DNA from: Tetmemena sp. SeJ-2015
Lineage: Eukaryota > Ciliophora > Spirotrichea > Sporadotrichida > Oxytrichidae
Reading direction: 5' to 3'
NCBI GenBank assembly: GCA_027382625.1
Contig: JAJKFJ010022651.1
Coordinates: 1-64,000 of the forward strand
DNA length: 64,000 nt
In this document: positions 451 to 22,330 of the stretch, piece after piece
Position numbering within the stretch: the first letter of the stretch is position 1
Layout of the letters: each line of letters starts with the position of its first letter
The notes under the pieces: generated by a model
Told to the model about the DNA's origin: nothing
The model's database searches: none
Seen by the model: the letters and a program-made list of their open reading frames with translations, nothing else
Translations under genes and position numbers: made by a program

Positions 451-1275
451 AGCTGGTACTCCTTCAAGATTTTGTAAATCCTTGAGTAGCTTGGGAAGAG
501 CTTGATCTTTCAAGAACTTTGCAGAATTAGCACTATTTACGATTAACTAATTTTCTCCTCTGCTTTCTGCTTTGAATAAGCTTCCTTTTCCTCCTCATTC
601 ATATCCTCAATTTTCTTTTGCTCTACCTTTGACTTGCAATTTCTCACTTATTAACTACGATAATGATAAGCCATTTTAGCTTGAGCATAGTCAATATTTT
701 TGGTTCTCTGATAGATAAGGAGCAACTCAGGTCTGAGGAGGCAAGTGTGGTATTCTTCGCCCTTATAGTTAGCATCTCTAGGTGTGAGTCCCTGCAAGTC
801 TACTAGGTAATTTCTTTTGTCAGTTCCCTTGATGCCCTTCACTTCAATGCTGCCAGCGATTTCAACCTCTTTTCCAGATCCATCAATCACTTTATTCACC
901 TTAATTTAATTTATTAGGAATTAAGCACCCCTAACAGGCATATAATACTTAATCGATTTAAAGTAATTCACATGCGTAACTCCTTGATCAGTTGTGCCAC
1001 GTCACCGTGAAAGCCCATCGTCAGTTAGTTAGTGATGACGCACTACCTCCCTTTATAGAGATGGAGGAGGATCTCTACGTGGTCTTGCCAATCTAGCTCC
1101 ACTGATGTCGACCTGATATCCACCGGCTTTCCCAGAGGTCACCGCAAAAACCCCAACGTCCAATGCTGATCAGGCGCGGAAAAGGGAAGAAAAAATAGCG
1201 ACCCCTTATTCACCTTAATGTTCAACTGCTCACAAACTTTCTTCATCAAGCCGTGGAAATGCTCATTCGCATAGA
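451..1275 (-). other. Displaced CLU coding segments, cluster 3 (four MDSs)
   Basis: Four minus-strand segments of the CLU gene lie here: 1206-1275, 667-905, 553-635 and 451-523. Together they encode the part of the CLU domain missing from the main locus, including the LTPRDANY and LRPELLLIYQ motifs typical of CLU/CLUH proteins, then a KDLQNLEGVPA stretch. Segments 1206-1275 and 667-905 are consecutive and share the 14-base repeat TTATTCACCTTAAT (892-905 and 1206-1219). All other ends carry repeats that match the main locus at 6060-6373. The spacers 524-552 and 636-666 are only 29 and 31 bases, and they sit exactly where the main locus supplies a segment. Reading frame is kept at every inferred junction. 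Confidence 0.9.
906..1205. other. 300-base GC-rich IES inside a CLU segment pair
   Basis: Spacer between the two copies of TTATTCACCTTAAT (892-905, 1206-1219). Removing it with one copy joins CLU codons in frame. Unlike the other IESs here it is roughly half G+C. It contains short inverted repeats, for example TAGAGAT...ATCTCTA and CGTCA...TGACG. No ORF or known RNA family was recognised. Confidence 0.75.
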
Positions 1276-1894
1276 ACGTATCAGATACTATTATCATAAT
1301 GCTAAAAAGAAATTCAACTCAGCTAGAGAAGTGAGATCATTGTTATTCAAAATGCCTGGAATGATGCTCTAAGCAAATATATATATATATATATAGAGTT
1401 GATTTATGAATAAAAATGAGTTAAATAATGTAATCGCTGAAATTAACTTAATCCAAGTTTAAGCCTAATAGCTCTTAATCTAGCTATGATGAGCTCATCT
1501 TTTGATCAGGAGCAGAGTGAAGAAATGTCTGTCGCTTTAAGCTCAAGAAAGAGGTCCTCTAAACAAGCCATTTAAAACAAGTAATTTCCTCTTCTTCTTC
1601 TTCTCTAGAGCTACCACTTCTTCTTTAATTATAAAAATTAATAAACTTTTGTTATAGAAAGAAACTCTGTCAGGGAATTCCCAACAACTAGAGATCTTGC
1701 ACTTCAGCAAGAAAAAGCAATCAGCTAAATATAGAAAGTTCATAAACTTATTGCAGTTGTTCAGCTCTCTTAAAAAAAAATTTTACACTTAATAACGAAG
1801 AAAAGCGGATATCTATATTTTGATATTCACTATAATTGCTAAATTTGTCTTCCTCGACAATCCAGTGATGGTTTTGGTGCTTAATAAATATTTG
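1276..1894. other. Spacer with an AT dinucleotide tract
   Basis: No gene was assigned. It holds an (AT)n run at about 1377-1395 and a lysine-rich minus-strand reading around 1550-1640 that could be a further displaced CLU segment, but I found no pointer for it. Confidence 0.4.
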
Positions 1895-1972
1895 ATTGAA
1901 TCAAGATAGACCTCCAAGTTCTTTCCAATAAGATTTTCCATCAACTAAGGTGTAGGAGTAGCAAGGGTTAGT
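1895..1972 (-). other. Displaced CLU coding segments, cluster 1 (two MDSs)
   Basis: Two very short minus-strand segments, 1940-1972 (33 bases) and 1895-1933 (39 bases), are separated by a 6-base spacer. They encode the NPCYSYTLVD stretch and the following IGKNLEVYLDS stretch of the CLU protein. Their edge repeats CAAGGGTTAGT, ATCAA, TAAGA and ATTGAATC match 7069-7079, 7067-7071, 7027-7031 and 6976-6983 in the main locus. The joined reading is in frame and agrees with the CLU family order (GFYRN region, then the CYS-TLVD region, then the PALPVHHF region). Confidence 0.85.
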
Positions 1973-2318
1973 GCTTAATTAATTCTTGCAAATTAATTTG
2001 AAAAAAAATTTTGCCCCCTTTTTGGGAAATTTTAATTTAAAAAGGAAGTTTTTTTTGGTTTTAACCGGGTTAAATTTAAAACCCCTTTTTACTTATTGAA
2101 TTTCAATCTTCATCTTAATCAATTATAAGATGACCTAATAAATAATTCTATTTATAAGTTTTGCACCTCATAATCTCAGGTGGACCCCAATAGCCAAGCA
2201 ACTCTTAACGAAAACGGTAAATTAAACCTACCTGGCAAAATCTATTCTATAGAACTCCCCTTACCGAATAAGTTTTAGCTTAATTTAGAAGTAAAAGATT
2301 TCAAATTTTATTCCTGAA

Positions 2319-3168
2319 AGAGAGTTCCGGGGAGGGAAGGAAGTGCACCTTCCCCCTTTTTATGGTCAAAATCGCCCAAAAATCATCCATATAGGCCTAA
2401 ATGGGCCAAAAATGCCAAAAATTTAAAAGTTTTTTACCTTAAAAATTTCCTTGAGGGTCCCAAAATTTTAAAGATTTCAATTTTTTAAAAAAAATTCACT
2501 CAAAATATGTTTTTTAAGTCAAAATTTAAAAATTTTAAAATAATAGTTTTAAAATAATATAGGGCAAATTTAGGCAGATACTTGATCACTACCAGCAATA
2601 TCTACAATATTCGCCACAGATAGAGGCTAAAAGTTAAATTAGCCTCAGTATTTATAAATATTGTAGTTATTTGACTTCCTCCCAACATAGAGAAATCTTT
2701 CCTCGAATTTATTTCTTAAGAAGAATATGGCAAGTTAAGTTCAAAGTCAAGATAATTTCATCTATCGCAGTATTTGCTTTCTTACACTGAATTTAACAAA
2801 GAGAAGGTCTCGCTAATTCTATTTTATAAAAGTTAGCATGTTTTTTTACGATTTGAAAATTTAGATTTAAACTTCTTGGGAAATTAAAGAGAACTCCCCA
2901 CCTTTTTTTTATCATCATTTTAAGGTCTTTTTTGAATGAAAAAATATAGGAGTTCAAATGGAGCAGTCTTTAAAAAGGGGGGGCCCCAAAACATGAAATT
3001 TATCAAAATTTAATTTTAAAAAAAAATTTTTTGAAAAAATTTCAAAATTTATAAGGAAATTTTGAATCAAAAAAATTTTTGGTTTTTGGCCCTTTTTGGG
3101 ACGATTTTTGGGCGATTTTGACCATAAAAAGGGAGGGTGCACTTCCGTCCCCCCCCCCGAGAGTTCAT
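2319..3168. mobile_element. Non-autonomous element with terminal inverted repeats
   Basis: The left end (about 2319-2385) and the right end (about 3101-3168) are inverted copies of each other. Both carry the core GTGCAC flanked by C-rich/G-rich runs, then TATGGTCAAAATCGCCCAAA on one strand and its complement at the other end. The interior is A/T homopolymer-rich and no transposase reading is visible, so this looks like a MITE or a decayed transposon. It lies in germline-limited DNA between two displaced CLU segment clusters. The exact ends and any target duplication are not resolved. Confidence 0.7.
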
Positions 3169-3494
3169 ATTTGGTCTGCATGCTCATTTGGGCATAAAAA
3201 TTATTTGAAGTAGATTTCTTTTTTAATTCAAAATTAGAAGAAAAAGTGATCTAAGATATTTTAATGACCCAATTATGTGTACAAGTCGAAAGCCTTTATC
3301 AATTAGTGATGACAGGGAGCATCTCGCTAAGATCTGCAGGTCCTTAATCGTACTTTTTAAAAAAATAAATATGAGTCCTTAACTTGCTACTTTTGCTTTT
3401 AAGATAATTTTTAAACAATTAAAATGCATTTCAAAAGATTCTGCTCTAAGCGATAACTCTCTGACCTCAAATTTCAAGTAAAAGGACATAATAA

Positions 3495-3627
3495 CTTTCA
3501 TAGCAGCATCAAGGAAATCATTCTCACAAATCTTTATAAAAACGGTTTCTTTAGGAAAATCTTTAACTACTTGGAATTCTTCATTCCAATCTCTGACTCC
3601 CTTTGGGTCCAATCCAAAAAGAGGCAC
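3495..3627 (-). other. Displaced CLU coding segments, cluster 2 (two MDSs)
   Basis: Segments 3544-3627 (84 bases) and 3495-3522 (28 bases) are on the minus strand. The first encodes GVRDWNEEFQVVKDFP, a recognisable CLU-domain motif, and the second encodes a nine-residue NDFLDAAMK stretch. Edge repeats AAAAGAGGCAC, GGTTTCT, GAAATCATT and CTTTCA match 6844-6854, 6823-6829, 6769-6777 and 6713-6718. The 21-base spacer 3523-3543 is replaced in the mature gene by segment 6769-6829, which encodes the RIQRDRAIHKVYNDF motif. Confidence 0.88.
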
Positions 3628-4239
3628 CAACAAATTATAATTAAATAGCCACTTATAAAATTAAAAAGTTATTTATCTTACTAATTAATTTATTTTCTTT
3701 GGGCATAGCAACCAATAACTATGCAGAATACTTACTTCTTTTTATAATGATAATATGGCTCAACTAGCCTTCAGCGCGTTTGAACAAACTAATATATCAA
3801 TCTTAAGTGATTCTCAGTTGTGCAACGATTAAATTAAAGGGTGGGCTATGTGCAAGAACGAATTATCTTCATTTCTCTGCTCATTGACTTTAATAAATGT
3901 GATTCTTTGTCTCTGATTAACCATTTCCCTATGTAGGTGCATTCATTGGCTTTCAGATTCGAAGAGATGAAAATGGGTTGGATCCCGCGAGAATAAAACA
4001 GATTTGCAGATACTCTTTCCAGGGAGGCATCAAAAGATCTCATGATCGATCAACCATAAATCGTAGTTAAATAATTACCTGAAGTAGAATTATAATAATC
4101 TTTGAGCTGCGATTGCCTACTACTCTCTGACTAACAAAATAATTATTATTCCCTTTAATTAAATGGATCCTCCTGCTCTGAGACTTATTTTATAAATTAT
4201 TTTTTTTATCAATAATTTCCTGAGCTGAAGCCTGGACCT
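3628..4239. other. Unresolved stretch downstream of the CLU TPR region
   Basis: Minus-strand readings at about 3850-4040 are open and moderately complex. They may be further pieces of the CLU C terminus or IES DNA. No pointer pairing was established. Confidence 0.3.
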
Positions 4240-7200
4240 TAGCGGCTTGTAAGTATTTTTTTAAATATCGCACGTTCCTGGTTATCAAGGGCTTTTCTGA
4301 AGTCGTGGTTATTCTTTATATTTTATAAAGTGGTTTTCTCCGAACAGATTAATGTTTCTGTAAAGGCTCTATAGTATATTTGCAGCTTAGAAGTGTTCGA
4401 AGTCCTGATACATCATACATATTCACGCTTATTGCTATAATGAGAAGCTATCTTGAGAATATTCAAGCCTATTGAGAAAAAAATTGAAAGAAATTAAAAG
4501 TTAAAGCATTGCTGAAGTATCCGCAAGTGTGATGATAAAAGGCCAAGTTAGTATACCATATTTTTTAAATAAATTTAAAAGTCTTTCTTCTATGTACCAT
4601 CATATTAAAAAGTTTATAGTTGTAAGCAGTCTAAGGGTGATCTAAAATGGAATAGATATGAAATGATAGCCTTAGTCTGGAGTTCAATTGCTTGAAGGAA
4701 ATCTCCAAATTTGTACTGAATGCTAGCTAGCTTTGAAATGCACTGGGAAACCTCTTTGTTCATGGGTCCAGTTATTTACAGGAGTGAATTGATGCATTAT
4801 GTGTACCTAAATACTTTCATATCAACTTAATAGATCATTATAATAAGAAAGCCTTTTCATAGATGCCATCTTTGTAGGCTTGCTTAGCCTGGCTTATCAT
4901 AATTCTCACATCAGTGTTTTAAAGCTCAAGATGTTTGAGTACTGGGAAGATCTCCACAACATCGCCATACAAATTATCATTCCTAAAAAATACTTAAAGG
5001 CAGGTAGCAATACTTATTCAAAGAATCAGCTGTCACTTACTGGACAGTCACTGCCTTCTTCTTGTCTAGAAAATGAGCTTGGTGAAGATTCTCTGCAGTT
5101 AAAATATGTATTGCTTATTTAGCAATTAAGATAATTAAATAGGATTTACTTGTTGAGAGAGTTTGTTGAGGAGCATGTTCAAATCATTATCGAGAACGTA
5201 ATCTCTATTCTTGTGGCTCATGAATATAAATCCTAATAAACGACATGTGAGTTGGTAATAGGAATTTATCAAGAGAGAAAGCTTGTAGTTGGCATGAAAA
5301 ATTACTCGCTCATAAATTCAATTTGAAAAGTCATGGTTGTATCTCTTCTTTGCGACATATCTGATTCTTTCGTAAAGTTCGCTGGGTTTCAATTAGTCAA
5401 ATTATGTAATATTTTATAGAATTTGAAGAGTTCATCAATCGAGAAATGCTGAAGCTCCATATTTTACTTAAAGAGCATCTACAAAATTAATGTTAAATAG
5501 TAGGTCCTGAGTCACTTGCCTTAGTTTATTTCTTTACCTCGCTAGGTTATGAGTCCTTAAAATACGAGGTATTTCATATTTTGTGCTACTTTTGCTTCTT
5601 CTTTAGCTTCTTTTTCTCGTTTTTAGAGAGATTTTTAGCATCCAATTCTGCAGCAGCTTTAGCTGACTGATCTGCGGATGCCACTTCCTTCGATTCCTCA
5701 TCCTGTTTTTCTGACTTGCGAACTTCAGTAATAGAGGGCTTTATCAAATTTTGGATGGTCTGATCTTCGTACACAAGAGATCCATCGTTAAGTTTCTCCA
5801 AAAGGGGGAATGGTGCTGTCAGCAAATTGAAAAGGTGACTGACAGTAGAGGCGAGGTAAGTATCTGAGCTTTCTCTGATAAAAGTTAGAGTATAATTTAG
5901 GTAATTGAAAATGTGCTTAGCTGATCTGAATACTATTTCTCTTTCGATCAAAGTTGAGAGATGGTTGTATTCCTTATCTTTAAGTAGTTCAGCAACAGCT
6001 CCGAGATATCTAATGTTGATACCATGGGAGTGGAAAGCTGTCTCAAGTCCTTCTGAATCAGCTGGTTTTAAACTTTTGCATATGGAATCGAAAAAACTTT
6101 GCAAGATCTTCGACTAGCTCTTCATCTTACTTTACCTCTTCAGCGGGAAGAGCAAAGTTGACATTCTTGAAAACGTTTGTGTTGTAAGTGAACTTGGGTG
6201 CTTCTTTCAGGTACTTGTCGAACTCTCTCAATTTAGAGATATTCTCCTCTCTTAAATTAGAAAAGAGTACAAGCTCTTTATAAAACGACCTTTGACTTCT
6301 CTTCCTCCAAAGCTTTGTTATACTAAGCCATTTCATTTTCATTTAATCCACTTTACTTACTCATTCGCATAGATGGTCTTATTTTCGTCAACTGATCCAT
6401 ACTCAGCTTTAATTTTGATGAACATGATGCTCTAAGCAGTCATTAAATATATCAGACCTCTATAGTTTACAAGGCAAGTTGCGAGAAGATGGAGACCCTC
6501 TACATCTAAGATTTGGAGTTGTCTCAGGCCCATAATATCGTGGTTTGCTTGAGTGAACGAGGGGTTATTCTCAGAGCTGGTGAGATCACGGAAGGAGTCG
6601 ATCAAATCTACTGCATAACTGAAGAAGATGTAGTTATACACAAAGACTTGCTGCTTCTCACTTTCATTAGGGTTCAGTGGCATCAAGTTTCCATTTACAA
6701 TAGCTTGAGCTCCTTTCACAGCATACTAAGATATGATACTAACTTTTGATTATGGTATAACGAAGATTGAAATCATTGTAGACTTTATGAATGGCTCTGT
6801 CCCTTTGAATGCGCTGAATCATGGTTTCTACTAATTCCATTATAAAAGAGGCACAAGAGTAGAGGCTGTGTCGTCCTTAGATTGAGAAAGTCTCATAGCT
6901 ACTAACTTGTCTTTAAGTTTAAAATGATGGACTGGGAGGGCAGGCTGAGTCAAGAAGTAAGGCTCGGTGTTGAGAATTGAATCTAATGCAGACATAGGTA
7001 ATCATATTATGTTCTTTCCAAACTGCTAAGAAATTTGGTAGAGGCATCCAACTTAGATATCATACTATCAAGGGTTAGTCTTGGTTGAAGGACCAGGGGA
7101 GAATAATTGCTTCTCAATGCTGTCATTTCTGTAGAATCCATTCACACAGCAAGTCAAGCTGACCTCACCATGATCAAGGGTCTTCACTAATAAGTAGAAG

Positions 7201-8540
7201 AGATCACCTACAACTCTTCTGTATGCTGGAACAGGATTGAAGCCAGAATAAGAAACTGCCTCCAAGCACTTGACATGGTTAACCTTGTTCATCTCTCTTT
7301 CAATAGGGTTCTTGAATAAGTCCTTCAATAAGTGATGTCCATTCTTCTCGGGAAGAGGAATCTCATTCTTGGATTCTCTCTCGATAATAGACATGAAGTC
7401 AGAATAGTTCTTCTTCAATTTCTCTTCATAAGGATTCAGTGCTTGCTTTTCTCCATTTTCATCCCTCTCACCAGCTGCATCTCCATCCTAGGATTAGCAA
7501 TAAATACTGCGATCTATGTAGTCAAGCTAATTTAAAGATTGTGTTTCGCTTTGAGCGTGTTCGCCTTTAGGGGTGCTGCTAAGTTTTAATATTCGTAGTA
7601 TTCAATTTTTCTCTCTTTATAAAGTTGTTAAAGGCCTTGTGCAAGTCCAGCTTCGGTTTAAGCTTGAAGGACGGGAGGGTTTGAGAGAATCTCCTTGACT
7701 CTTTTGATATGTTGTCTGGCATTTTTCTCGTCGTATTTTTCTATAGTATATAATCATAAACATCTTTAATATTAGCCACAACCACTCTACAGGTACCAAA
7801 CCACCTTCCTATTACATATCTTTCACAATCCCTACTTTCACAACCCTTAACGGTTCATTTACTTACCTGGTCTCATGTAGATTTTGTTATCCTCTGCTAA
7901 GTTAAGTTCTATATTAAAATGAGAAAAAGCCCTACTTAACAATTTTAAAGTTCTGCAAGTTCAGTGTAGTCATTGATTTTCTTTCCTTGGTGCTCAAAGT
8001 GATAGTGAGTATGGAAACAGGTGTAAACATGCTTAAAATATTATTTAGTAGATTTTATAATTAAATGCTCGTTCAAGAATTCTCTGAGCTCAAGAACCAT
8101 TTCGTACTGCACGGCCTACACGCAAAAACATAAGCCTCGTAAGTTCATCATGCTTAAACTCAGCCAAAGGAATCCCTTCCACTTCTCAAACCCTTTTCAA
8201 AGGTTCAAAACCTTCCTTAGACTCTCATTTTACACTTACGAGTTTGGGGCTCAGTGAAAGAGAGTTAATAAGTGAAGATTGAGAAACTTTGAGTCAGGGT
8301 GAAAAGTAAAGGAGCATCTAGGCATAGATAGCTTTTAAAAGTGTTTTTAATTTTGAAAACCATTGATGAATTTGATTAAATGCTTACTCTAAGATTGATC
8401 TCTCTCTGATTAAGATCCACAATTGTCAAATTCAAGAAGCTATCTGCTAAAACTTATTTACTCTCAGAAATACTTTTTTCAATCCATATTTTTATAATAT
8501 AGTGAGATTATGAGGTGGCTTGGTTTTTGGAAGAGTCCAT
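4240..8540 (-). CDS. CLU/CLUH (clustered mitochondria) homologue, main scrambled locus
   Basis: In other eukaryotes CLU proteins bind mRNAs of nuclear-encoded mitochondrial proteins in the cytosol and keep mitochondria dispersed. The start is ATG at 8540. The order along the minus strand is: an N-terminal region with LREFLNEHLI (8.1 kb) and YDEKNARQHIKRVKEIL (7.7 kb); the NPVPAYRRVVGDLFYL motif (7.2 kb); PLNPNESEKQQ (6.7 kb); the GINIRYLG and RSAKHIF core of the CLU domain (6.0 kb); and TPR-type fragments such as GPMNKEVSQCISKLASIQYK (4.7 kb). The CLU domain is not contiguous. Segments 7027-7071, 6844-6983, 6769-6829, 6360-6718, 6288-6333, 6095-6250 and the one starting at 6066 must be interleaved with pieces at 451-1275, 1895-1972 and 3495-3627. 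The C-terminal part (5.57-4.24 kb) is only partly ordered and its last codon was not identified. Family assignment is firm; exact structure beyond the CLU domain is not. Confidence 0.88.
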
Positions 8541-9198
8541 TTTGTTAATAAATAGCGATCGAATGATGATTTGAGTGAGTGATTTGTTTATTGAGTAATA
8601 TATTAAAATATAATACACTTCCAAGCCAACACCCCTCAATTATAATTTATTAAGAGCCGTAGACAACAAACAGTCAACCCAAGAAGCACTCTCTTTTTTC
8701 CTTTATTTAATAAACTTAGAGATAAAAGAAAATATATGAGACTCATTTAAATTAAGAATATGCTTTTTCAAGTTTAAGAGTTAAATACTTGAGAATCTTA
8801 TCGGTGTTAACACATTTGAGCTAATCCCTATGGAATTAAATCAGCCATATGTTACAAATATATCTATCTCCTCTTCTTATTTGATATCTATAGGTTGCTT
8901 AATAAATTCTGCAAAGTTATGATTCAGAAATGTGAGAAGGAATGAAAAAATTATAATCTATCTAGAGTGACGATACTTTCGATTATTAAGGTATTATTTT
9001 AATAGGTTATTTGACTCTTCCTTCTATCCTTGGAAACTGGCTATATCTTTGATAATTTCAGTGTGAGTTTGTTCTTTAAAAATAATAATATTATGAAAGA
9101 CTGTAAAAATGTATTGACATTAATTTAGGTTCTATATTGGTGGATTAATATAAAAGATTATTTAGTATTACAGTACAGAAACTATAAAGCGACCTGAA
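8541..9198. other. Intergenic or germline-limited spacer
   Basis: AT-rich stretch between the divergent CLU and MMS19 starts. Nothing recognisable. Confidence 0.5.
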
Positions 9199-12100
9199 AT
9201 GGCAGATCACCCAATGCAAAATGATAGCTCCAGCAAATAGCAAGCACATAATGAGATGATAGATCCTGCGTCTGTATTATCTGCTCCACCAGTAGTTTTA
9301 GACCTCAATTATATGTGCTTTCTTATAATTTTAAGAGAAAAAATATAGTAAATTAGCAGCTGCTGCTTTTGAACGAAAGAATTCAGTCCAAGCAGCAAGA
9401 AGTGAAGGTATAAGGAGTTAAGGATTTAACGCAATTGGCCTACCATAAATAAAATTAAGTAGGATTCATATTTCTAATGAGCACCATGTGCTTGAATCCC
9501 CTTAGAGAGTTTCAGAGCATGCAGGAGTGCTAAACTCAGTAATTCAGATATGCACCAGTAAGCTTGGAGATGTGTACCTGGCTCTTCCTTGCGTGACTCT
9601 TCTCTCAGAAGTGATTCATAAATTAACAGTCTCAAGCAATGCCCTCATTTAAAAAGCGTCTCTTATACTCTAGCCCGACCCATTCATATTTTGCAATTGC
9701 ATTTTATAAAGACCTCGTTTCTGGCATTTTACGTCAGTGCTCTTCTCCCGCATTTCATGTGCCTGCTTACAACTTCAAGACGAGGAATGCCATCTTCCGA
9801 ATCTATTAGTGTTTCACTCTTGCCCCAAAAAACTTATTGCTCGACCATATTGAGCCCACATTTTTCATCACATCTATCCTAAGCGGTGTTGAAGAAGAGA
9901 AAGATCCCAGGAATTAATAAAAGTGTATACTATGCAAGCTCTTATTAATTTTGTTAAAACTTATCCCAGGAACTTGATTATAACTTACGATCTGATTCAC
10001 TTCATCCTGAGGAATTGGGGGAGTCAAAGTGCCCTCGCAGAAAGCGACTAAAACCAAAGGATCATAGAGCCCTTTCTAGATGAGCTATTTGACAAGGTAT
10101 CTTGCTACTTCCCCATTAACTTTGAGCCTCCAAAGGATGACAAGTTCAAGATAACTCCAGAAATAAGTAAATAGTTATATGGCATCTTTTCCTACTCTAT
10201 ATTCTTAATTTGAAATATTGTAGGAGAAACTGAATAGATGCTTTTTTGCGACTCCCTTATTCCAGCGCTTTTCATTCCCTTTCATATTAGATAAGCTCAA
10301 TTCCTCCCAAATAGACACTAAGCTTCAGTGCTACTCTCTCCTTAATAAGATGATTGAGCTCTATGATCACAGCTAAGATCAGCCTTTCATATAAAGGAAC
10401 AAGCATAACTTAGCTGCTGCTCTCAATTAAGTCATGAACTATAGCTAGATGATATTTTTATCCTATTTTTGGAAAATTTGAACGAGTACTTCAATAGCTT
10501 CGATGAGACGTAGTAAACTGCGGCTTCGGGAACTTTGTGCGCCATTCTCAAATGCACCTCGGAGTAAACTGCAAAGGGAATCAATATCACCTAAACCTCC
10601 AAAGAATTCGAAGAGGTACTAGTAAAGTGTATTGAGAATATAGAAGAGAGTTTAATAAGATATTTAATCACATTTGATTTTAATAGTCCTGAATCGATGA
10701 ATGCATTCCTAGCTAGCCAACTGCTCTCTGTACGTAAAATATATCTTGTAAAAGTTATTTTCTTAGAACATCGCCATTTTATCGAACCAACTTTAAGAGC
10801 AAGTCCTATAGCACTTCATTAGTGAGCATGTAAGATATATTTTTGAGAATAGATTCCTCTAACTTATCTTTTATATTTAGGTAATGACTGTTATAAGAAC
10901 TGAATTGGATTAGCACCTCTAGAATTTACCAAAACTTGCCTCCTACGTTTAGATAGTAGCTAACACTTTTGAAAAAATAGGATCATAAACTATTTAAGGA
11001 GCTACCCTGAAATACCTATTCTCTACCTCCACCAATTTAACTTAAATATATTTACTACCTTCATACTTTTTCAATATTTTTAAATGAATGAGTAGATTAT
11101 TTCCCTCCTCGATAAGGTGATAAGAGCTGACAATATATAATCTATTCCCATCGTGTTTGAGAAAGGGCTGAAACTTCTCACATCTCTCTCTAAATTTATA
11201 AACTCTATCTTTCAAGTAATCTTTGCTATTTAAATTCAAAGCGCCCACTTCACTAGACTCAAAGAATGATTTGAAGCTAGAGAAGCATATAGTGCTCTGC
11301 TAAAATTGATAGTAGGCTCCAATTCTTTAAAAGCAGAGGAATCTAAGCATTCAATTTATTTGGATGAGAACAGTATGGATATAGATCAGCAGTTCTCAGA
11401 TAATTTCTTAATCTCAAACACTGAACCTCAAGCCTTAGATTCGAGTGAGAAACTACATGGCCTTATTATAGAGTAACTGTCACTCATGTAGAGTAATAAC
11501 CCTAGTATAAGGTCTATCCTGGACTAAAACCTGTACCCTCTATTGGAGGGCAAATATTTACAATATTTTAGAGTCAAAAGATTTAATCAAATACGAAAAG
11601 AAGGGAATATAATATCTCCTTAAGAATAGATTCCTCGTTGAAAAAGTGCTTGTTCAGCTATTACAAACCTCAAGGGAGCACTTCTTGCTCTTAGAATTCT
11701 CTAGCACAATATCTAAATGCTCCCATCAGAAATTAAATAACGAGTTCCCCTATATTTGTATTATTAAATTTACCTTTGTCTCAAAGATTATATCAACAAT
11801 TTAAAGTTGTCACCTTAAGATAGCCAGATCTTTATTAATTTAATGTGTGCTATAAATCAAATGCTTATTATCTTAGAGTAATAATGCCTGCAAACCTTGG
11901 AGCAACTATTCTAGAATAAAACGGGTACAATTTAATCTCAATAAATTAATTCATAATATTCCATGCCAAATTTTAATCTCATTACCTTTAAGACTTCACC
12001 ATCCTTCTTTTATAAAAGATTGACAACCAGCAGGCCACTTAAATCGTAATAAATCTCTCCAGTTAAGCAAACTCTGATCATCCCAATCACCTAGAGAGTG

Positions 12101-13211
12101 TCAAATTAATTAAAAAGATTCTCTCTAAGAGAAAACTTATAGTAGATTAACTCCTTGAAAATGAGCAATTCTAAAATTTCCTCTCACAAAGTGAGAATCA
12201 AGCTTTTGAAAATGAGAAATGGCTTTAAGAATTTTCAAAGATAGCTTATCTATTGATAAATTAAATCATTAACCACTTTTGTGCATAATTTTAATGATCC
12301 TGAAGTCAGAGAAGAAGCTAGATGAGAAGTTGCTGAAGCTCTTAAACTTTCAATCTAATTCAGATAATTAGCAGTTGCCAATCCTACTTAGAATGTCCAT
12401 TCTAGGAGCTTTAATCATAAGAGGAGAGAACCTGGGCTTTTAAGAAATGAAAAGGCTTTTACTATAACGAGAGCAACTGCCTTTGATTACCAGATACTAT
12501 CAACTGACAGTGGCTAAGTCTTAAAAAATTATTTAAACAATAAGGGAGATGTCTTCGTTGTCAAAGTACACTAAAGAAAAGGGCTTTAACATCTATAAGC
12601 TATATCCACAGAGACTTTTCAGCACAGTTTACCCCTTGCTACAGGAAAGTTGTACCTAAACCCAGAGACTAAGAGCTTTGGAATTCAGCTTCTTATGCAG
12701 ACATGCTAACTACTCTCCTCTCAGTAACTTATTTAAACAATTTTCTTTTTTTTAATCTATATTGACTTTTAACTGCAAGAGAAGTTGAAGGATCTGCTTC
12801 CAATCGCGGAGGAAGCTTTGAAGCTAGAGTAGTGCAGCTTTGATGTTAAAATTACAGCCATGCAAGTCTTCAAGCGCACACTCGATGAACACATCTAAAG
12901 CGAAACTTAGGAAAATACAAAGGCAGCAGCTCCCTTTGCCCTTGAGCTCAAATACCTAGAATATAATTGAGTTATTCAAAACTAGTTATTATGAATCATT
13001 TGTGAAGTTCATAATAGAATCACTTTCACTTCCACAGATGACCCTCACATTCAAGCTAGAGGCCTTGAATACTTTGACTGAAGTTTCTCAGTTTAAGCTT
13101 AATAAGTACAAGGATTAAATTATAAAGCAAGCAAGGGCTTTGCTAGATGACCCTAAAAGGCCAGTTAGGAAGTTCGCAAGGTATTGTATCAACGAGTGGC
13201 TTAATTAATGA
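9199..13211 (+). CDS. MMS19-like HEAT-repeat protein (cytosolic iron-sulfur assembly)
   Basis: MMS19 is the scaffold of the CIA targeting complex that delivers Fe-S clusters to nuclear enzymes of DNA replication, repair and transcription. The ATG at 9199 opens a Gln-rich N terminus. At about 10.08-10.17 kb the reading FDKVSCYFPINFEPPKDDKF matches the signature of the MMS19 N-terminal domain (CYFPI-F-PP-DD). The region between is helical, HEAT-like and Leu-rich. The C terminus at about 13.05-13.21 kb contains LLDDPKRPVRKFARYCINEW, the conserved end of the MMS19 C-terminal domain, and stops at TGA 13209-13211. Several frame changes occur in between and are probably short introns or IESs that I did not resolve one by one. 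Segment order appears linear, not scrambled. Many codons are TAA/TAG read as Gln. Confidence 0.8.
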
Positions 13212-13417
13212 CAAGTATCTTAGTTTTTTACTGAATTTTGTTATCTTCTTTCATCTTGATAATAAATGATAACTCTTCTAAGAACCTAATGTTCATTCTG
13301 AATGTTAAATTGAAGCTTTAGATTATGTTTAAGAAAGTAAAATCATTTGATTCCCCTCTCTAAAATATTTTGTATTGTCTTTCAAGATCTTTCTTTTTTT
13401 CTTCATTTATCATTTTG

Positions 13418-14090
13418 TCATATTGAGTTAGGGCCAAACTTCTCGAAGAGCCTTCTTTGTTTGATATAGTTCTCTGCCCTTCTTAAGTCGCCATCCAATT
13501 TCTTACTCTTCCTCCAGTAGTCGTACACGTTATCCTCATTTATCTTTTGATTAAGAAAATATGGACAAACATTATGATCAATTGATAGAAGTATCTATTG
13601 GAATACCATTTTGAGCCAGTGACTATTATAGAACCGCCAATTATCCATACGAACGTGTTCCGGTTGAATGTTGCATACGCAAACCCACCTCCTAGTATCA
13701 ATCCAGCCATTTAGATTAGATTCTGTGAATTCCTATACATATCACACTTATACATTCATCATCTCCTTTTAATAAATATTTTGAAGAGTTGATCTTAGCA
13801 ATCTGCTCTTCCTTTTTGCCATTCTTGAGTTCGTAGAAATTGTCGAACAAGTTTGGATCCTAGCATGTTTCCAAGATCCAGGTCTAAGTTTAGCATCAGC
13901 TCCTTGCGAATGAATTCATAGTTCTTGCGTGTCAATCCTTGCTTTAACTTGTCGATCCTGTGTAACTGCAGCTTTCTCTGTTCCCTTCTGGATCTGTGGC
14001 AAGTTTATTTGGGTCCTTAGTTGGCTCAACTGGAGATGTACTTTGTTTTTCCCTTGTGCTGCCGCAGCCTGAGATTAGTGGTCTTAAGAC
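13418..14090 (-). CDS. Small predicted membrane protein, family unknown
   Basis: Minus-strand coding pieces end at TGA 13418-13420. From the N-terminal side they include a basic helical stretch (KLKQGLTRKNYEFIRKELML), an acidic/polar stretch (NLFDNFYELKNGKKEE), a Gly-rich hydrophobic segment (LILGGGFAYATFNRN, then WIIGGSIIVTG) compatible with two membrane passes, and a charged tail (NEDNVYDYWRKSKKLDGDL). Frames change between pieces, so introns or IESs are present. It overlaps nothing and sits tail-to-tail with the MMS19-like gene about 200 bases away. The layout (short soluble N terminus, helical hairpin, charged tail) resembles small mitochondrial inner-membrane proteins, but no family could be assigned. 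Confidence 0.55.
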
Positions 14091-14186
14091 ATCAATTAAA
14101 TTAATTTTTCAACTACTATACAAAATATTTTTATGTTAAAAAGAAATTAGAAAATTTAAATTCAAAAAAAATATATTTAAGCCAAA

Positions 14187-14792
14187 ATGTCCAGGAAATT
14201 AATTGACATGATAGGCATGAAAAATCAGAGTTATGAGAATGGCGAAGATAGAGAATATAAAGCTGTGATTGCAATCTAAAGTGTGTTCAGGAGCTACTCT
14301 GTGAGGAAAAGAATGAAGGAGGCGCAACTTGAATTCTACGAAATTTTCAAAGGCATAGAGGGAGACCTTGGAAGTAAGAAAATCGTTTTTGCTAACTTAC
14401 TGTTCTTAGTGAATGCTTGCTACTTGGATGAGAGTAGTTTTTTTGAAATGCCAAAAGTCACATCAAAGATAACCTCTGCTAAGTCTAGCAAAGCTGCTTT
14501 TGTAAATGAAGGCGATCGATAAAATGCACCAAACTAATACGAAATGAATAGAGTACAGTCTTTGAACAGTCTTAAAGCAGAATACCACCACTAAACTTAT
14601 AACAGCATAGACACAACAAAACTAATAGGACCTCCTGCAAATACATCTCACAGCTAATCTTAGATAGCCTAATAAAATCCACTAAATAACTAGAGATACC
14701 TTAAAATAAGCAATTAGAATAATAGGAAATTGCTCATTCAAGTTTTGATGTAGATATGGAAATAATAATGTAGAGAGGGAGTTAAAAAATGA
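14187..14792 (+). CDS. IQ-motif (calmodulin-binding) protein, hypothetical
   Basis: Uninterrupted 201-codon frame from ATG 14187 to TGA 14790 with TAA/TAG as Gln. Near residues 30-48 is IQSVFRSYSVRKRM, a good IQ motif (IQxxxRxxxxRxx), suggesting binding of calmodulin or a centrin-type protein. The N-terminal half is folded-looking and the C-terminal half is Asn/Gln/Ser-rich and probably disordered. In the last 60 codons a second frame also looks coding-like (AHSSFDVDMEIIM), so an unremoved IES near 14.7 kb is possible and the true C terminus may differ. No further family assignment. Confidence 0.6.
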
Positions 14793-15042
14793 GCTATTGC
14801 TACTTAAAAAATGGTTTATTATTTATTTAAGCAAATTTAATTCAGATGGCAATCCAATTTTTTTACTCAAGTACTTCTATTTATGATAAGTATTGTTTTC
14901 AATTTTTAATAAAAAATATTATCTTGACGATATTGAAATTATGTTAAATCATATCAGTATGTTGATTAATAAATAAATGTTATAACTTGCTTCAAAATAT
15001 TATCTTATATTATACTTCAGTACATAATATCCTTTTATTTGA

Positions 15043-18000
15043 TCAAAATCCAGCCTAGGGAGTGCCATTCGATCTATCCTCAGCCGCTCGCTCAAGGGAA
15101 TCTTATCGATTCTGAAATTATTAGTTGAACAGGCTCTTTGGCTATCTCTGTCGCTGCTGAGAATTTGACCTAATCTCAAATTCCTTAGTCCTCTCAGAAT
15201 CAATAAGGCAAGTCTGTCAGAGGTGTCACTCTCCTTGTAAGCCACATAGTTATAACGACTATTGCTCCTTTACTAGCTGATGAGTTCATTCCTATTTCTA
15301 TCTTGACTCTAGCTCATTTGATCTACATGAGAAGACTCAGTCTACTACTGTACTAAGCCCTCAGATGGAGGGTAGTTACTCTTTGCAGGGGTTTGTAAAA
15401 GCTGATTGCTACCTAATTTATCGTAAGTTCGAGGGGATTCGAATCTGTTACTGGTAAGTTCAGGGTCTCCTAATCCCACCTCCTGACCCTATCCTTCTAT
15501 CATCTCCTAATGATATCTCATGTCTGCATCCCTTATCACCTCGCCTAAATCTTCGTTTATTTTGACTTGCTAAATTCTAGAGCTCAACTAATCAAAGTTC
15601 TACTAGGAAAGCCTCTATTGATTTCCAGAAGCTGCTCTTTAGTTATTAATATTTTAGTTTGAAAGCATTTCACCTACTCTACTAGTGCTACCAAAGCGTT
15701 TGCTTTGAGAAGGGGTATCGTTCTGTAAGAGAGAAAAATTCGAAACTCTCTTGCTTTGCATTTCATAGAGGTACTTCTAGCTCTAAGTAGAAAGAGCTCT
15801 GTTATGATTCAGAGCTGGGAGCTATTGTAATTGTTTGATGTTATGTTGCGGACTTGTCGTAAGGGGATTTTAGATTTATGTGGGAGTTTCCACTTCAAGA
15901 GCTTACAGGATATTCAAGTGACTTTACAACATAGAGCCTCCAATCATAATCTTCTCATTATTTCTCAGTTGAAGGTAATTGAGGTCTTGATTGAAGTTAG
16001 GATGAATAGAGGATAGCATTGAAGGATTTTAACTTATGACAGCTTTGGGCTGGCTATAAGATCGTCTTTGATTCAGTTAATGAAATAAAGAGGGGTTATT
16101 CAAATCTCATATAAGTCAAATAGCTAATTATAAAATGGTACTTTTGAATCTCTTAGCTGCATCTTGTCAAGACTTTAAGTGTGATTAAGTTGAGAATTCT
16201 CGAGCATGGACAAAGTTCGATCTGCGCTCTCGTATCTTTTATAAGCGTCAGTTTTGTGGATGGCTATCTTGAATTGATAATCGGTGTTCTATTTCCTCAA
16301 ATCATGCATCACTACAACTTGATCGAGCTATTCCATCTACTTCCTCTAATTTCTTATTTCCTCGTCGAGCATCTTGTGCAATACCTGAGCGTCAAATAAC
16401 TTCTTCCTGACGTTTCTTAAGCATTATCTTTTTTATTTGGAGATCATAACGCATCGACTTCATCTTGATTTCGTGAGCGTGGACCATATTTTCAAGACCG
16501 ATCTCTGCGTTATTCTAAGATTAGTAGTCGCCTACAAGGATCTCATATCTCTACTTTTATAATCCAGCTAATCTATAATGGATTAAATGACTTCACTCTT
16601 TGATGCTTGACTTTTTCTTTCTTCAATTCTCTCTTGATCTCTTATAAACACAAAATATTATAATCAACCTTACTTTCATTTTCTCTTTGAATTTCAATCT
16701 TGCATCTTAGTATTTTAGCGCCTCTTAGTCAAAGGTCTGAGCATTTTTGCCAATCCCCCTTTGAATTTCCTCCGACTCAATTTTGTAGTAATCATTTTCG
16801 GTGAGTATCTTATAAGCCTCCTGCTCTTGATCTTTGTCCTCTTTGGAAGGTTTGCATCTTAAAATGCTGGTTTCTAAACTTCTACTGCACTTCCTTGTTA
16901 CCTATCTCTATGCTAATCACCTTTATCTGTTCATCAAGATAATATACAGTAGAAAAATAATAATGTTCAAACATTTTATGTCGTAATTTTAAATCAAGTT
17001 TATGAATCTTGCTTAGTAACTCTTGCTATAAATTTGTATCTTAGCTCTTATCAATCTGCTTCTATACAGTTAAAAACTCTGCCTGTAGCTAGGCAGCTCG
17101 ATGTCGTGCGTTCATAACTAACCTGTCTAGAATTTCTGGATCAGAGATGAAATTATCCAGGGTCTTGTGCGAAGCAATTCTATCTGGCGAACGAGAGCAG
17201 TTAGCTTTCATCAGTTTTTGATTTGTCTTTTCTGAGTCTATGATTTCATTTAGGCACTTATTCATGTCTTTCAGGTACTTTCTTATTTTTAAATTTTCAG
17301 TGTTCAGCTCACCTATTTCATCTTCATAAGCTAAACGATATCCATGAAAAGTAAATGAAAGTAAAAAAGAAAGTATCCTCTCTCCTCATCTCTGGATTAG
17401 GCCATACTCTCAATGTCCACTTAAAAGTTGAGATCAACCCTTATTTTTTCAAGCAAGCTCATTGGATCTATCTTATGTAAGAGTCTTTCCTAGTTTTGCT
17501 TGAGAGCTAAAATACTTCGCTTGGCTACAAGATCTTTACTGAATTTCTTCAGACTCTAGCTCACAGGCATATCTTTCTTCCTTCCGTTGTTACCATTGAC
17601 AACGTTAGTGATACAAAATAAAACTAATTTACATTAAAACATCACAAGATGAAAATTATTAAACCTAAATTTAGTGTGTGTATGTTTCTTAAGCTACTTA
17701 GGTTGAGGAAACAATTTTTTGCCTTTGAAGGTACTGAAGGCAGGTCTAGTAGCACTCCCTTCCTACCTCTAATTCTTCATAGTCTAGCTATTAATTTTTG
17801 CCCTGACTTTGAACTTGAACGCAGGAGTGTCGTGGAAGTTCGAAGGAGAATTTGAAACTCCATCAGGGTCAGTTGGAATATTTAATAAGTTCAGATTTAT
17901 CTGCCCACCCGAGCCTTCCCAACTATCCCTAGAAACCATCTGAAAGATATCCTCGTTGTTGAGACTTATCTTATACTGATCTTAGAGTTGAGCGAGGGAC

Positions 18001-18900
18001 TTCTATTATTCAAGGGTCTTAAATGTAGAGGTGGGTTCTCTGGAACTCAGAGCAAGAGGAAAGGTCATCCACAGGAAATAAATCAATGGGCCTTTTTTGG
18101 TTATCCTAAGATGGATTCCCAAGTGTGAATTACTTCTTACTGATGATGTTTTCTGCGATCCTCATGTTTTTATGATGCTGACTGTCCCTTGTCTCTTGCT
18201 TAAGAAAGATATTTGAGCTTTGCGGGAGAGGCGTGTCTGTTGTCTGGTCTTACCTTTCAATCGGAGAAATATCGAGGATATTCGACTAGTCTGTCTGAAA
18301 TTGAAAAATAGAGATCACAGGAAGGTGAATTAAATTGAGGCCTCTGTTAATCCTCAGTATCGTTAATGTCTATTTGAAGAGTTAATCTATCGTTTAGACT
18401 TTCATCTATTTAACTGTCCCTAGCTATAGTTATACTGTAAACTCTCATAGTTATCCCTCTTGAAGTCTTCTTGACTATTTAAATCTGATATTAGCATAAA
18501 ATGGACATTTGAGTGACTGATGATGCCACTATTGAGCTGGCTTTTGAACATGTCTATCTCCTACTGAATCTTGGCCGCAAAATCATTTCCTCTGTCAATT
18601 TCCCTCACTTTATTCAGGCCTTTCTATTCCACTCCTTCTTCTTCATCCTAAGGCAACTAGTAGTCATGCCTATTGCTCTTTAATAATCCCCTAAACTTCC
18701 TTCCTTATCACCATCGCTGCCCTTGCGTAGGCTTGATAGGCCCTAGAAACCCTCCGACTTAAGAAAAATCTCGTTTTATAAAGGAGTAGACGGTAGCTCC
18801 TACTGTAAGTTGTGCTTGAGTAGGGCTGAAGAGAAGTTGCTTTAACTTAGAAGTGGATCTGCAAGACTACTTGTTGATTGAGTTGAGGGCTTATTCAAGT
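15043..18900 (-). CDS. Long coiled-coil, Gln/Asn/Ser-rich protein
   Basis: A minus-strand coding tract ends at TGA 15043-15045. It includes an uninterrupted reading of more than 250 codons at 15.25-16.0 kb, a coiled-coil reading at 17.0-17.3 kb (EDEIGELNTENLKIRKYLKD and following) and another at 17.4-17.6 kb. Upstream, the reading from 17.65 to 18.03 kb (TLEQQKSLAQLQDQYKISLN) stays in frame across 17.6 kb, so I treat the tract as one gene. Two short IESs were recognised by pointer and frame: 15196-15233 and 18032-18059. Other frame changes remain near 16.0-16.9 and 18.4-18.7 kb. Composition and coiled coils suggest a cytoskeletal or basal-body protein, which is inference only. The start was not found; the tract may continue through an unlinked segment. 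Confidence 0.6.
15196..15233. other. 38-base IES, pointer CTCTC
   Basis: CTCTC occurs at 15191-15195 and 15229-15233. Deleting one copy and the spacer shifts the minus-strand frame from a dead end into the reading NYVAYKERTKEFEIRSNS, which stays open to the TGA at 15043. Confidence 0.65.
18032..18059. other. 28-base IES, pointer AGAGG
   Basis: AGAGG occurs at 18027-18031 and 18055-18059. Removing 28 bases joins PVDDLSS to TFKTLEQQKSLAQ on the minus strand in frame; without removal both frames hit TGA or lose coding character. The IES itself is not AT-rich. Confidence 0.6.
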
Positions 18901-19727
18901 GATTCAAAAAAATTAAAGTAAAGATCTTAACTCTGAAGTTAAAAGAAGTTAAATTAATGAATAAATAATTATTATAAAGTTGAAATATCTCCAATTATAA
19001 AGTTTACTTTATAATGATTGATCTGGTTATAGTTTATGGAGTTTTAATTTTGCTGATTAGAGTTCAAAGCATAGTTAGGCTGCTAGTCTTGCAAGAGCAG
19101 AAAGTCTGGCTCCGGAGTTTGCTAAGTCATCAAATTGCTAGTCGGCTGATGAATGAGCGAGAACTAGTTCTCTTAGTTTTCCTCATTAAATATCACCGGG
19201 TTCCCTGTTATTTTATTTGAATTGCTTATACAAGGGAGGAAGTCCATGTAACTGAGAAGATGTGCTTTGCTACCCTTATCCTATTCCTCCTCCGTTTTAG
19301 TTTCTTTTATCAGGCACCCAACTCTCTCCATCCACGTAATCTATTTCTCATTCTAAAAACGTCTATCCTTTTAAGATTAAAGATAGATTTATTCTTTTAA
19401 ATACATCTTTCTATACTTTTAATGGATGGTATTGAACTCTGGAGAGGGTTATTCATCTGTAATGTTGAGGTTTTGTATTTACTAGGGTGGTGGTTAATAA
19501 TTTCTAACTCTTCTTCGATCAAGCAGCTGAGCTTTCGAGTCATTTTCCAAAAGCATTTTATGAATAGCGAGAGCCAACCACTTTATCTTTATTTTTACTA
19601 GATTTATAAACCCTAATATATATTCTCATTCCTAAAATTAGCTCAGATTTCATTTAAAGTTAGACCCATTGATAAGGTGTGATCTTAAAAAAGCTTAAAA
19701 TAAATTTAAAGAGTATAGATGAGATTA
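18901..19727. other. Spacer between two minus-strand coiled-coil genes
   Basis: AT-rich. Short open readings on both strands but nothing with clear coding character; may contain germline-limited DNA. Confidence 0.4.
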
Positions 19728-22330
19728 TCATAGGATATCATATCTTGAGTTCCCCACACTAACTTAATTAACGTTAAAGTAGGATTTCTTAGCTGTATTA
19801 GACTTCCTCATGCTTGAATCCTCTTTCATATTTCTTGACTTTTTAATATCTTACTTTGCTTCTTCTGCATCTTATTCTTGTGTACTTTAGTCTACGTGGT
19901 ATCTAGTTATCCTTACTTTACTTGGCTTTCTAGCACTACCGCCCTATTTTGCTATAATTGAATCCTTCCATTCTTTTCCAAAAGCACTGCGCTGTTCCTT
20001 ATAGGCTTGATCTACTTTAGGCAAGAATTTGCTCAAGATCTTCTTCTAAATCTCTTTCTCGGAATATCTCTGCGATGCAAGTTCACTCTGCTTGTCCTTA
20101 AGTAAACTATTAGATTCCTAAGCTTGAGCAAGCAGATTTTAAGAGTTGCGAAACTTGTTGATCTCAACTTGCTCAAATTTCTAGCGATATCGCAGTTGCT
20201 TCTCTTTGAATCTAAAGTCAGCCTGCTCCTTTTAATCTTGGTAAAACTGCATCTACTATTTATCATGAAAGTACTAAGGGATCGAAGTTGACTAAGACGC
20301 TTGGTGCTTTGAAAATAAGGGGAGATGAGTCTTTACTTGATTGTAGTTGCTTAAAGTGAGATTATCGTTTTCACTATCAAAGTTTTTATCTCTCTAGGTT
20401 TAAGAATCTAACCCATGGTTCTACTATTTGAGATTGCCTAAGAATTTAGGATCTATTTTATCCATGTTAATAGTCTTCTTGTACATTTGGAGTTAACTCA
20501 GTGATTTAGTTTAAGATTGACTTCCTCTATATTGGTAGATAGTCTTGAATTAGTCTATGCTTAACTTGGGAAGCCTTCTCAAAGTTTCTATATCCTAGAA
20601 CTTTGTAGGCTCATAGTGATCTTGGGCCTGCTCAGCTAAGCTCTTTTAATCATCGTCAGGGACTTTCTCCCTTTCAGTTTTCTGTGGGCTCTCTTCTTGG
20701 TTCTATTGCTATTTTTTATCTAGAGCATTTTTATTCAAGCTTATCTTATTCCTCACTATACTTATTCTCTTTTGAAGTTCAGAAGCTTTAGGTTTTGAAG
20801 AGCTGCTTTCATTTACAAATATGGGAAAAATGAAAAAATCACTATACGCATTTTCCAGCTGAGCCCCTTCCCTCAATCTCATAATCTTTTACCTCTCTTC
20901 GTTTTGCCTTTCTAGCTCTTTCTCTTGCTCCTTAAGTTATTCCCTCCTTCTCTCTTTGGCTTCTAGTGCTTCCTATTTCTACTTCTTCTTATTCATTCTA
21001 TAGTTGCCCTTAATATCAGAGTGCTCTCCATTAAAAACATCGATAGAGGTGAAGATATCTATCTCAGAGTAAATTCGCTCATCTGGTATGAAAAAGCGAG
21101 GATCATCAAACATCTCCTAGAATTCCTCCTCAGTGAACTCCTTCAACAGCACTTGAAAATTCATAACCTTCACATTTTAATACTTTGTTGATGTCAAGCT
21201 TCTTATGTTGTTGCTACCTTTCTGGGCTATAAGTCTCCTGAGGATTAATTTCCGATTCATTCGCGATCTCTCGCTATGACTTCGGATTCAGCCTCTCCAA
21301 TGAATCAATTTAATTAACTACTGCTATTCTCGTACTATAATAATTTCACTAAATCATAGGAGGCCTTGGACCTCCTCCGAAGCCTTAATTTCATGTCGTA
21401 GTCATTGATTCTCTTTTTGTGGAGCTTGCATTCATTTTGCTAATAGAACTTAGCTAGCAATTACGTCACCCTCTGCTTCAGTATTTTCCTCTTCTCTTGC
21501 TGCTTTGCCAGCTCCTTCTTCTGTTAATCTGCCTCTAGTCTTCTCTGAGATAAGTTTATAACAAGAGACCTTGCTAATAAACGCCGGAGTGAACTCGATC
21601 TGCCTAGTGCGGAGATAGTCTAATTAGTTAGCTAATACTTATCTTCTGTAAGTTCTGTATCTTTATAGGGTGATTCCTACTTGATGACTGATCTGTCCTA
21701 TCTCTCTGTTAAGGGCGCGTCTCAAAATAAAAAGCAAAGTTTAATAAGCATCTTGCTGATAATCTTGCATGAGTTTGAGCTTAAATTAATTTTTTGGGAT
21801 CTGTTAAAATTGGAGTATTCTTTTTTTTATTAATTAAAAAAATTTAAAAATTTCAAAGGAAAAAAGGGTTTAAAAATTGGTTATTTTTGGGGAATCTTCT
21901 CAAAGACCCTTTTTTTTAAATTTAGGATTTTACAGGCTCATGATAGCCAAGATTGTGGTTGTAAATCAACTTCTCATCGTCATCTATCTTCTGAAAAGTT
22001 AACTATTCAAAGCATCGATAATCATTTGGATATGCGAGTAAAACTATTCTTGCTGATGGAGAAGTGTTTGCTGCTTATTGAGGGTCTTGGATCTGCGGGT
22101 AGGTTGAGGACTGTTTCTATTACGAGTTTCTTGCTTTGAGGTTTGATTTGTCGTGGCCACCCTGCTATTAACCAGCCCCGTTGACTAGGCAGGTTTAATA
22201 ATCATTTTAGTTATATTCTCATTAATTTGCTGTGAGTTTGCTACCTTGAGTATATCCTGTCTAGTATTAAATTAAGCAGTTTAAGTTTGAGACCTCATCA
22301 AGTCGGTTCCATGAAGTTGAGGGGCATTAT
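19728..22330 (-). CDS. Charged coiled-coil protein, family unknown
   Basis: One long minus-strand gene. The downstream 1.4 kb (21.17 to 19.73 kb) is a single open frame of more than 470 codons, starting with a possible internal MNFQVLLKEFTEEEF and ending at TGA 19728-19730. It is rich in Lys/Glu/Gln heptads (EQEKELERQNEERQKIMRLR; KEKQLRYRQKFEQVEINKF). Upstream are SQRRLEADQQKKELAKQQEK at 21.5 kb and a Ser/Thr/Gln-rich N-terminal region at 22.0-22.3 kb. Interruptions lie at about 21.78-21.96 kb (AT-rich IES) and near 21.33 and 21.17 kb. Long charged coiled coils of this sort are common in ciliate cytoskeletal proteins; function is not known. Confidence 0.65.
21780..21960. other. AT-rich IES with internal inverted repeats
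   Basis: Homopolymer-rich stretch interrupting the coiled-coil gene. It has A/T runs and matching arms (AAAGGAAAAAAGGGTTTAAAA and AGACCCTTTTTTTTAAA type) that resemble the style of the inverted-repeat element at 2.3-3.2 kb. The pointer was not pinned down. Confidence 0.5.

Follow-up and report, generated by a model that had tools for sequence, protein, structure and literature searches.

The window analyzed here is the first 64,000 nucleotides of contig C3287 (153,734 bp) of the Tetmemena sp. SeJ-2015 assembly, all of which (146 Mb in 5,213 contigs) was searched for related sequences. There is strong support for the presence in this window of a CLU (clustered mitochondria) gene that is divided between two groups of segments, both on the minus strand: a main cluster (approximately 8540–5590 and onwards) and a second cluster (3627–451) located 2–6 kb away. 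The joined CLU frame is open under genetic code 6, in which TAA and TAG encode glutamine and TGA is the sole stop codon, and this open frame, together with short repeats at the segment borders and small interruptions, suggests that the DNA is from a ciliate germline (micronuclear) genome, probably that of a spirotrich. We consider it highly probable that this is a micronuclear CLU gene scrambled in an odd-even pattern, one segment of which carries an insertion resembling a short interspersed element (SINE).

A first-pass annotation had proposed a scrambled, two-locus CLU gene with pieces interleaved at 15 shared repeats. A protein search with the product of this earlier join as query yields nine homologues (P0001–P0009) at E ≤ 0.001 among 7,991 scored candidates, the best having 60–62% identity; the six closest sit on contigs of 2.4–4.5 kb. 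P0001–P0006 are continuous proteins and can therefore serve as judges of each join. The homologues follow the order of the joined product rather than the order in which the segments lie in the window. The product has the same CLU_N, CLU and eIF3_p135 order as CLU/TIF31/FMT proteins, its C-terminal stretch aligns to P0007 and P0008, and compared with these proteins it shows nothing unusual in itself. The earlier join matches the Pfam CLU profile with 211.1 bits and also eIF3_p135, with CLU_N lying in the 5′ part of the gene; the corrected join described below matches CLU (PF13236) with 245.7 bits, above the curated cut-off and across profile positions 1–225 of 225. A divergent CLU paralogue (approximately 40% identity) is present on another contig (locus L023, C3551:57000–66900; CLU match at C3551:63368–64111), and its entire CLU domain is colinear within one open stretch.

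The corrected map contains 19 macronuclear-destined segments (MDSs) that alternate between the main and second clusters throughout (19 of 19) and are linked by 18 pointers of 5–14 bp. A direct repeat is present at all 18 junctions, with one copy retained. The main cluster holds the odd-numbered MDSs in order, and the even-numbered MDSs make up the second cluster in the minus-strand order 6-8-10, then 2-4, then 12-14-16-18. MDS 1 (7069–8540; minus strand, as are all that follow) contains the 5′ part of CLU from an ATG at 8540, as located by tblastn with P0001 and P0003, and ends in the main-cluster copy of pointer CAAGGGTTAGT (7069–7079), which is shared with MDS 2 (1942–1972; second copy at 1962–1972). 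MDS 2 encodes NPCYSYTLV, aligned with P0002 residues 150–158, and is joined through CAACT (1942–1946 and 7049–7053) to MDS 3 (7011–7053), which in this form brings back GCLYQISQQFGKNLE and supersedes the earlier segment 7071–7027. The pointer GTTCTTTCCAA (7011–7021 and 1918–1928) leads to MDS 4 (1895–1928), which encodes GKNLEVYLDSI (P0002 residues 169–179 in the alignment), and ATTGAATC (1895–1902 and 6976–6983) to MDS 5 (6844–6983), part of which falls in a stretch that is variable among the homologues. These are followed by MDS 6 (3544–3627), entered through AAAAGAGGCAC (6844–6854 and 3617–3627) and placed on the basis of VPLFGLDPKGVRDWNEEFQVVKDFPKET, MDS 7 (6769–6829), entered through GGTTTCT (3544–3550 and 6823–6829), MDS 8 (3495–3522), entered through GAAATCATT (6769–6777 and 3514–3522), and MDS 9 (6455–6718), entered through CTTTCA (3495–3500 and 6713–6718).

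The central part of the map includes two segments that are absent from the first-pass annotation. The first is a micro-MDS, MDS 10 (3442–3468), entered through GACCTC (6455–6460 and 3463–3468) and left through TGCTCTAAGC (3442–3451); it provides GQRVIAQS at the position where P0001 and P0002 carry GHRVIAQS. The second is MDS 12 (1317–1374), which encodes AQSIIPGILNNNDLTSLAE, aligned with P0001 residues 464–484, and carries ATGATGCTCTAAGC (1361–1374) at its upstream border. Between them is MDS 11 (6424–6437), a segment of just 14 bp that is composed solely of overlapping pointers, TGCTCTAAGC to MDS 10 and ATGATGCTCTAAGC to MDS 12, and that is identical in contig C746, an allelic copy described below. 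Treating this 14-bp word as a tiny MDS preserves the alternation, but it is also possible that MDS 11 is a relic and that MDS 10 joins straight to MDS 12 at a 10-bp word, in which case there would be 17 junctions, one of them an even-even join. The remaining segments are MDS 13 (6360–6408; pointer ACTCAGCT at 1317–1324 and 6401–6408), MDS 14 (667–1275; CTCATTCGCATAGA at 6360–6373 and 1262–1275), which holds the SINE-like insertion, MDS 15 (6288–6333; TAAGCCATTT at 667–676 and 6324–6333), MDS 16 (553–635; ACCTTTGACTT at 6288–6298 and 625–635), MDS 17 (6095–6250; TTCTCCTCT at 553–561 and 6242–6250), MDS 18 (451–523; AACTTTGCA at 6095–6103 and 515–523), which aligns to P0003 residues 683–709, and MDS 19 (5590–6066; AGCTGGT at 451–457 and 6060–6066), which contains the eIF3_p135 region.

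Twelve of these pointers are from the first-pass annotation, two are corrected and four are added. The kind of gene proposed there stands, and all 15 of its repeats are found in the window where it placed them; the exact order and the list of junctions do not stand, as two junctions are wrong, four were missed, and one is a target-site duplication. Compared with the homologues, 12 of the 15 repeats hold as pointers, and ATCAA, TAAGA and TTATTCACCTTAAT do not. Across junctions two and three, P0001 and P0002 read TLVGCLYQLSPxFGKNLE, and the window yields the corresponding TLVGCLYQISQQFGKNLE only through the CAACT and GTTCTTTCCAA joins. CAACT thus replaces ATCAA (1940/7067), and GTTCTTTCCAA replaces TAAGA (1929/7027), both being needed for the conserved TLVGCLYQ-x-S-x-x-FGKNLE stretch; the ATCAA and TAAGA joins leave the frame open, yet introduce extra residues or an unrelated stretch relative to the homologues. 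The segment 6718–6360 had been read as a single piece, and four junctions inside it (GACCTC, TGCTCTAAGC, ATGATGCTCTAAGC and ACTCAGCT) were overlooked. Read as one segment it gives LIYLMTAQSIMFIKIKAEYG against HRVIAQSIIPGILNNNDLASLAEYG in P0001 and P0002, and the main cluster alone reads NYRGLIYLMTAQSIMFIKIKAEYGSVDE opposite NYRGHRVIAQSIIPGILNNNDLASLAEYGSVDE of the same two proteins. The absent residues are located in the second cluster, AQSIIPGILNNNDLTSLAE at 1374–1317 and GQRVIAQS at 3468–3442; a search for the missing HRVI codons with a G-H-R pattern found none, and a shared-word search then gave GQRVIAQS.

The reading frame is a poor guide to these choices. The earlier join keeps its frame throughout, just as had been claimed, and is free of TGA under code 6, but its two wrong joins are likewise in frame, so that a kept frame is no proof of the joins; with TGA as the sole stop, wrong pointers easily leave the frame open, as the earlier map shows. 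The homologues are more discriminating. The corrected joined frame (7487–5590 plus the second cluster, the 5′ part lying outside) encodes 738 stop-free amino acids, and its best alignment outscores that of the earlier join for all nine homologues (660 versus 595 for P0001, 642 versus 576 for P0002 and 566 versus 508 for P0003). For P0009, the most distant, the earlier join aligns in two pieces (119 + 91 = 210 bits) and the corrected join in one (203). The alignments to P0003 and P0005 span all 18 junctions. The pointers are also longer in sum than random sites provide: the 18 lengths come to 166, whereas sets of 18 site pairs drawn at random 20,000 times averaged 66 and peaked at 86, under a null that allows ±8 bp and 13 registers per site, although this does not cover every choice in junction placement.

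Three other contigs carry allelic copies of parts of the locus. C4491 and C746 are haplotigs of window 5941–20122 (approximately 95–97.5% identical to the window), and C2386 is a further copy of 1–905 and 1204–1545. The second-cluster pieces are matched in the assembly only by the window and C2386, and 5500–7500 only by the window, C4491 and C746. The interruptions within the clusters recur in these copies, in C4491 and C746 for 5941 and above and in C2386 for 451–1374. Between the window and C746, substitutions affect 47 of 1178 positions in main-cluster MDSs (4%), 1 of 142 in pointers (0.7%) and 32 of 229 in the internally eliminated sequences (IESs; 14%); deleted columns number one, none and three, and insertions one (a terminal overhang of the alignment), none and one, respectively. 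In C2386, 22 bp are deleted from the IES that separates MDS 14 from MDS 16, nine changes fall outside the coding segments, and several bases within 667–905 differ from the window. In the joined frame there are 44 synonymous and two nonsynonymous changes in C746, seven and none in C4491, and 11 and none in C2386 (compared over the second-cluster stretches 451–905 and 1206–1374), a total of 62 to 2 where random changes would be expected to be about 21% synonymous; this tally counts only the joined pointer copy and begins two bases further on, which explains the slight difference in totals from the substitution tally. This shows both clusters, where the allelic contigs reach, to be under purifying selection in the joined frame.

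These comparisons bear on three other ways of accounting for the locus. The second cluster (451–3627) could be a piece of a distinct CLU paralogue that may be dying, with the main cluster being the gene, and the colinear paralogue on C3551 indicates that CLU genes have been duplicated. However, the two clusters are complementary and do not overlap, each encoding residues that are absent from the other, and the main cluster by itself lacks some of the conserved CLU residues. Purifying selection in the joined frame is a strong argument against a dying paralogue, the second-cluster coding changes in C2386 being exclusively synonymous. The first-pass annotation had named a separate paralogue at 451–3627 as an outcome that would overturn it, and both the complementarity of the clusters and the selection contradict this; we regard it as very unlikely. 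It is extremely unlikely that the order is an assembly artefact, in which a chimeric contig mixes the pieces of one colinear gene. C3287 is the sole contig linking both clusters, but the interruptions within each cluster are repeated in the allelic contigs, and misassembly would not place matching 5–14-bp repeats at 18 borders. An equally slight probability attaches to the pieces being exons that are joined in RNA through trans-splicing or exon shuffling without the DNA being rearranged; at least two probable GT-AG introns are indeed present in the 5′ part, but one copy of each border repeat must go if the frame is to be kept.

Several observations nonetheless weigh against a scrambled CLU gene as mapped here. 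The two clusters are linked by a single contig, since C4491 and C746 both stop at exactly window 5941, perhaps at an assembly-graph break, and C2386 matches only within 1–1545. Searches of the assembly DNA found no joined CLU molecule, only copies in germline order, and no allele of MDS 2, 4, 6, 8 or 10 was found among the assembly contigs. One base of MDS 5, at 6917, is missing from C746, so that either the assembly is wrong here or this allele is damaged. Some pointers are individually weak, with chance probabilities under the null above of 0.17 for CAACT (5 bp) and 0.05 for those of 6 bp. Finally, the IESs do not resemble decayed copies of the MDSs whose place they take: just 1 of 15 pairs has p < 0.05 (about one is expected by chance), and their lengths are uncorrelated (Spearman rho −0.05, p 0.86). 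An origin by duplication and decay is thus unsupported at the CLU locus, where MDS/IES paralogy is undetected, unlike in the account given in the relevant part of PMC9797194. The same source describes weaker MDS/IES similarity at older loci, and the CLU locus is either old or arose in some other way. A scan of the assembly for telomere repeats gave no forward matches and 21 reverse matches on three contigs, as compared with 4 and 24 for a reversed control pattern, with overlapping matches included in all counts.

Were this scrambled CLU gene processed as its map implies, the segments would be joined alternately in the new macronucleus at the 18 pointers, with one copy of each kept and the IESs lost. 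From what is known in Oxytricha, both generally and in the parts of PMC9797194 that treat it, this joining would be expected to take place during macronuclear development with guidance by template RNA.

MDS 14 is interrupted by a SINE-like element of approximately 300 bp (about 906–1205, with no strand assigned), flanked by the 14-bp repeat TTATTCACCTTAAT at 892–905 and 1206–1219. The first-pass annotation had taken this repeat (892/1206) as one of its junctions. However, the element is dispersed: it is present in the window and at 39 other places with 93–96% identity over the same stretch (the best 40 of 610 candidates), and the 39 scored places share fixed ends (query 497–518 to 799–804). 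When 20 copies were checked with their flanks, direct repeats of 13–18 bp were found at the ends of 13, allowing one mismatch, and not at the other seven; two pairs of these copies have both flanks in common and another pair has one in common, so that some of the 20 are not independent. In C2386 there is a single TTATTCACCTTAAT, the insert is missing, and MDS 14 is continuous. The dispersed copies, flanking repeats and empty allelic site rule out TTATTCACCTTAAT as an ordinary pointer, and the most natural interpretation of the insert is a SINE-like retroposon of recent origin, with TTATTCACCTTAAT as its target-site duplication. Rfam gives no match near a gathering score in 860–1260, and ARAGORN predicts no tRNA in the window.

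If it were retained, the insertion would add 314 bp, shift the frame and introduce TGA stops, and it is therefore most likely deleted. Deletion at the TTATTCACCTTAAT duplication would bring the frame back exactly, and we lean slightly towards the insertion being removed as a young IES with the 14-bp duplication acting as a pointer. The odds are about even that it is a newborn IES, still polymorphic, whose target-site duplication became a pointer at once. Somewhat short of even is the chance that the insertion is retained, so that this allele yields a defective CLU chromosome and the function depends on the other one. The damage that an unremoved insertion does to the frame and the existence of an insertion-free allele are both in keeping with retention, but the flanking MDSs are undecayed, all nine coding changes in 451–905 being synonymous. 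Moreover, ciliates are expected to eliminate, during development, insertions that the old macronucleus does not contain. Among the matches listed in a literature search on SINE- or retroposon-born IESs, no title concerns a SINE-born pointer.

The second CLU cluster is further divided by an element resembling a miniature inverted-repeat transposable element (MITE), which sits between MDS 10 and MDS 2 (approximately 2328–3158; no strand assigned). It has inverted ends and is flanked by 8-bp direct repeats GAGAGTTC at 2320–2327 and 3159–3166, for a total extent of 2320–3166; copies are present in the window and at 39 other places, with 79–89% identity over most of the element (the best 40 of 535 candidates). 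Within MDS 1 there are two probable GT-AG introns (8387–8116 and 7866–7741, minus strand), and P0004 has extra residues at the position of the first, consistent with an unspliced prediction. MDS 1 also contains two small, probable conventional IESs on the minus strand, one with pointer AGCAT (8069–8065/8033–8029) and one with AGAACTT (7954–7948/7910–7904); the pointers were picked by eye, and both IESs are backed by P0001. The 3′ part of CLU occupies 4100–5589 (minus strand; tblastn with P0005, P0007 and P0008), where stretches align to P0007 and P0008 in their C-terminal part; it has frame breaks, and the end near 4100 is a guess. Just past the last CLU segment, 61–450 is almost identical between the window and C2386 and might belong to the coding region of an adjacent gene. 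Elsewhere, 44001–50000 has a G+C content of 45–46%, the remaining 2-kb steps of the window ranging from 30 to 41%.

It is well supported that CLU is an odd-even scrambled gene of an already known kind, mapped here more exactly than before. Odd-even scrambled genes in Oxytricha, Tetmemena and Euplotes woodruffi are described by Feng et al. 2022 (PMC9797194), and as in CLU their even and odd MDSs are in different germline clusters with IESs between, and one pointer copy is kept. Short direct-repeat pointers are common to both, those of a ‘more typical 2–20 bp’ being referred to in that paper. CLU differs from the genes as they are presented there in having an even cluster whose own segments are out of sequence (6-8-10 precedes 2-4) and which is interrupted by the MITE-like element. 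The main text of PMC9797194 has no whole-word occurrence of ‘CLU’, and no paper on a scrambled Oxytricha clustered mitochondria gene was found in the literature searched. The locus thus provides a compact, internally controlled scrambled gene, in which homologues set the junctions and haplotigs reveal selection on the joined frame.

What is new here is that a scrambled MDS harbours a polymorphic SINE, whose duplication may be a ready-made pointer. The transposon-born IESs of Paramecium stem from DNA transposons. The TBE and Tec insertions in IESs are also DNA transposons, according to PMC9797194, which for the Paramecium cases cites Sellis et al. 2021; these cases are also treated in PMC8384191. 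Like all of these, the MDS 14 insert is a mobile element in germline gene DNA that requires removal as DNA; it differs in that it is a SINE-like retroposon flanked by a 14-bp duplication, that it lies within a scrambled MDS, and that the assembly also contains an allele without it. How the Oxytricha germline gained its many IESs is posed as an open question in PMC9797194, and a polymorphic retroposon bears on their origin. If the interpretation offered here is true, retroposition alone would yield both eliminated DNA and a recombination repeat inside a scrambled exon, and the occurrence of both the filled and the empty allele in one assembly would make the birth of a pointer directly testable.

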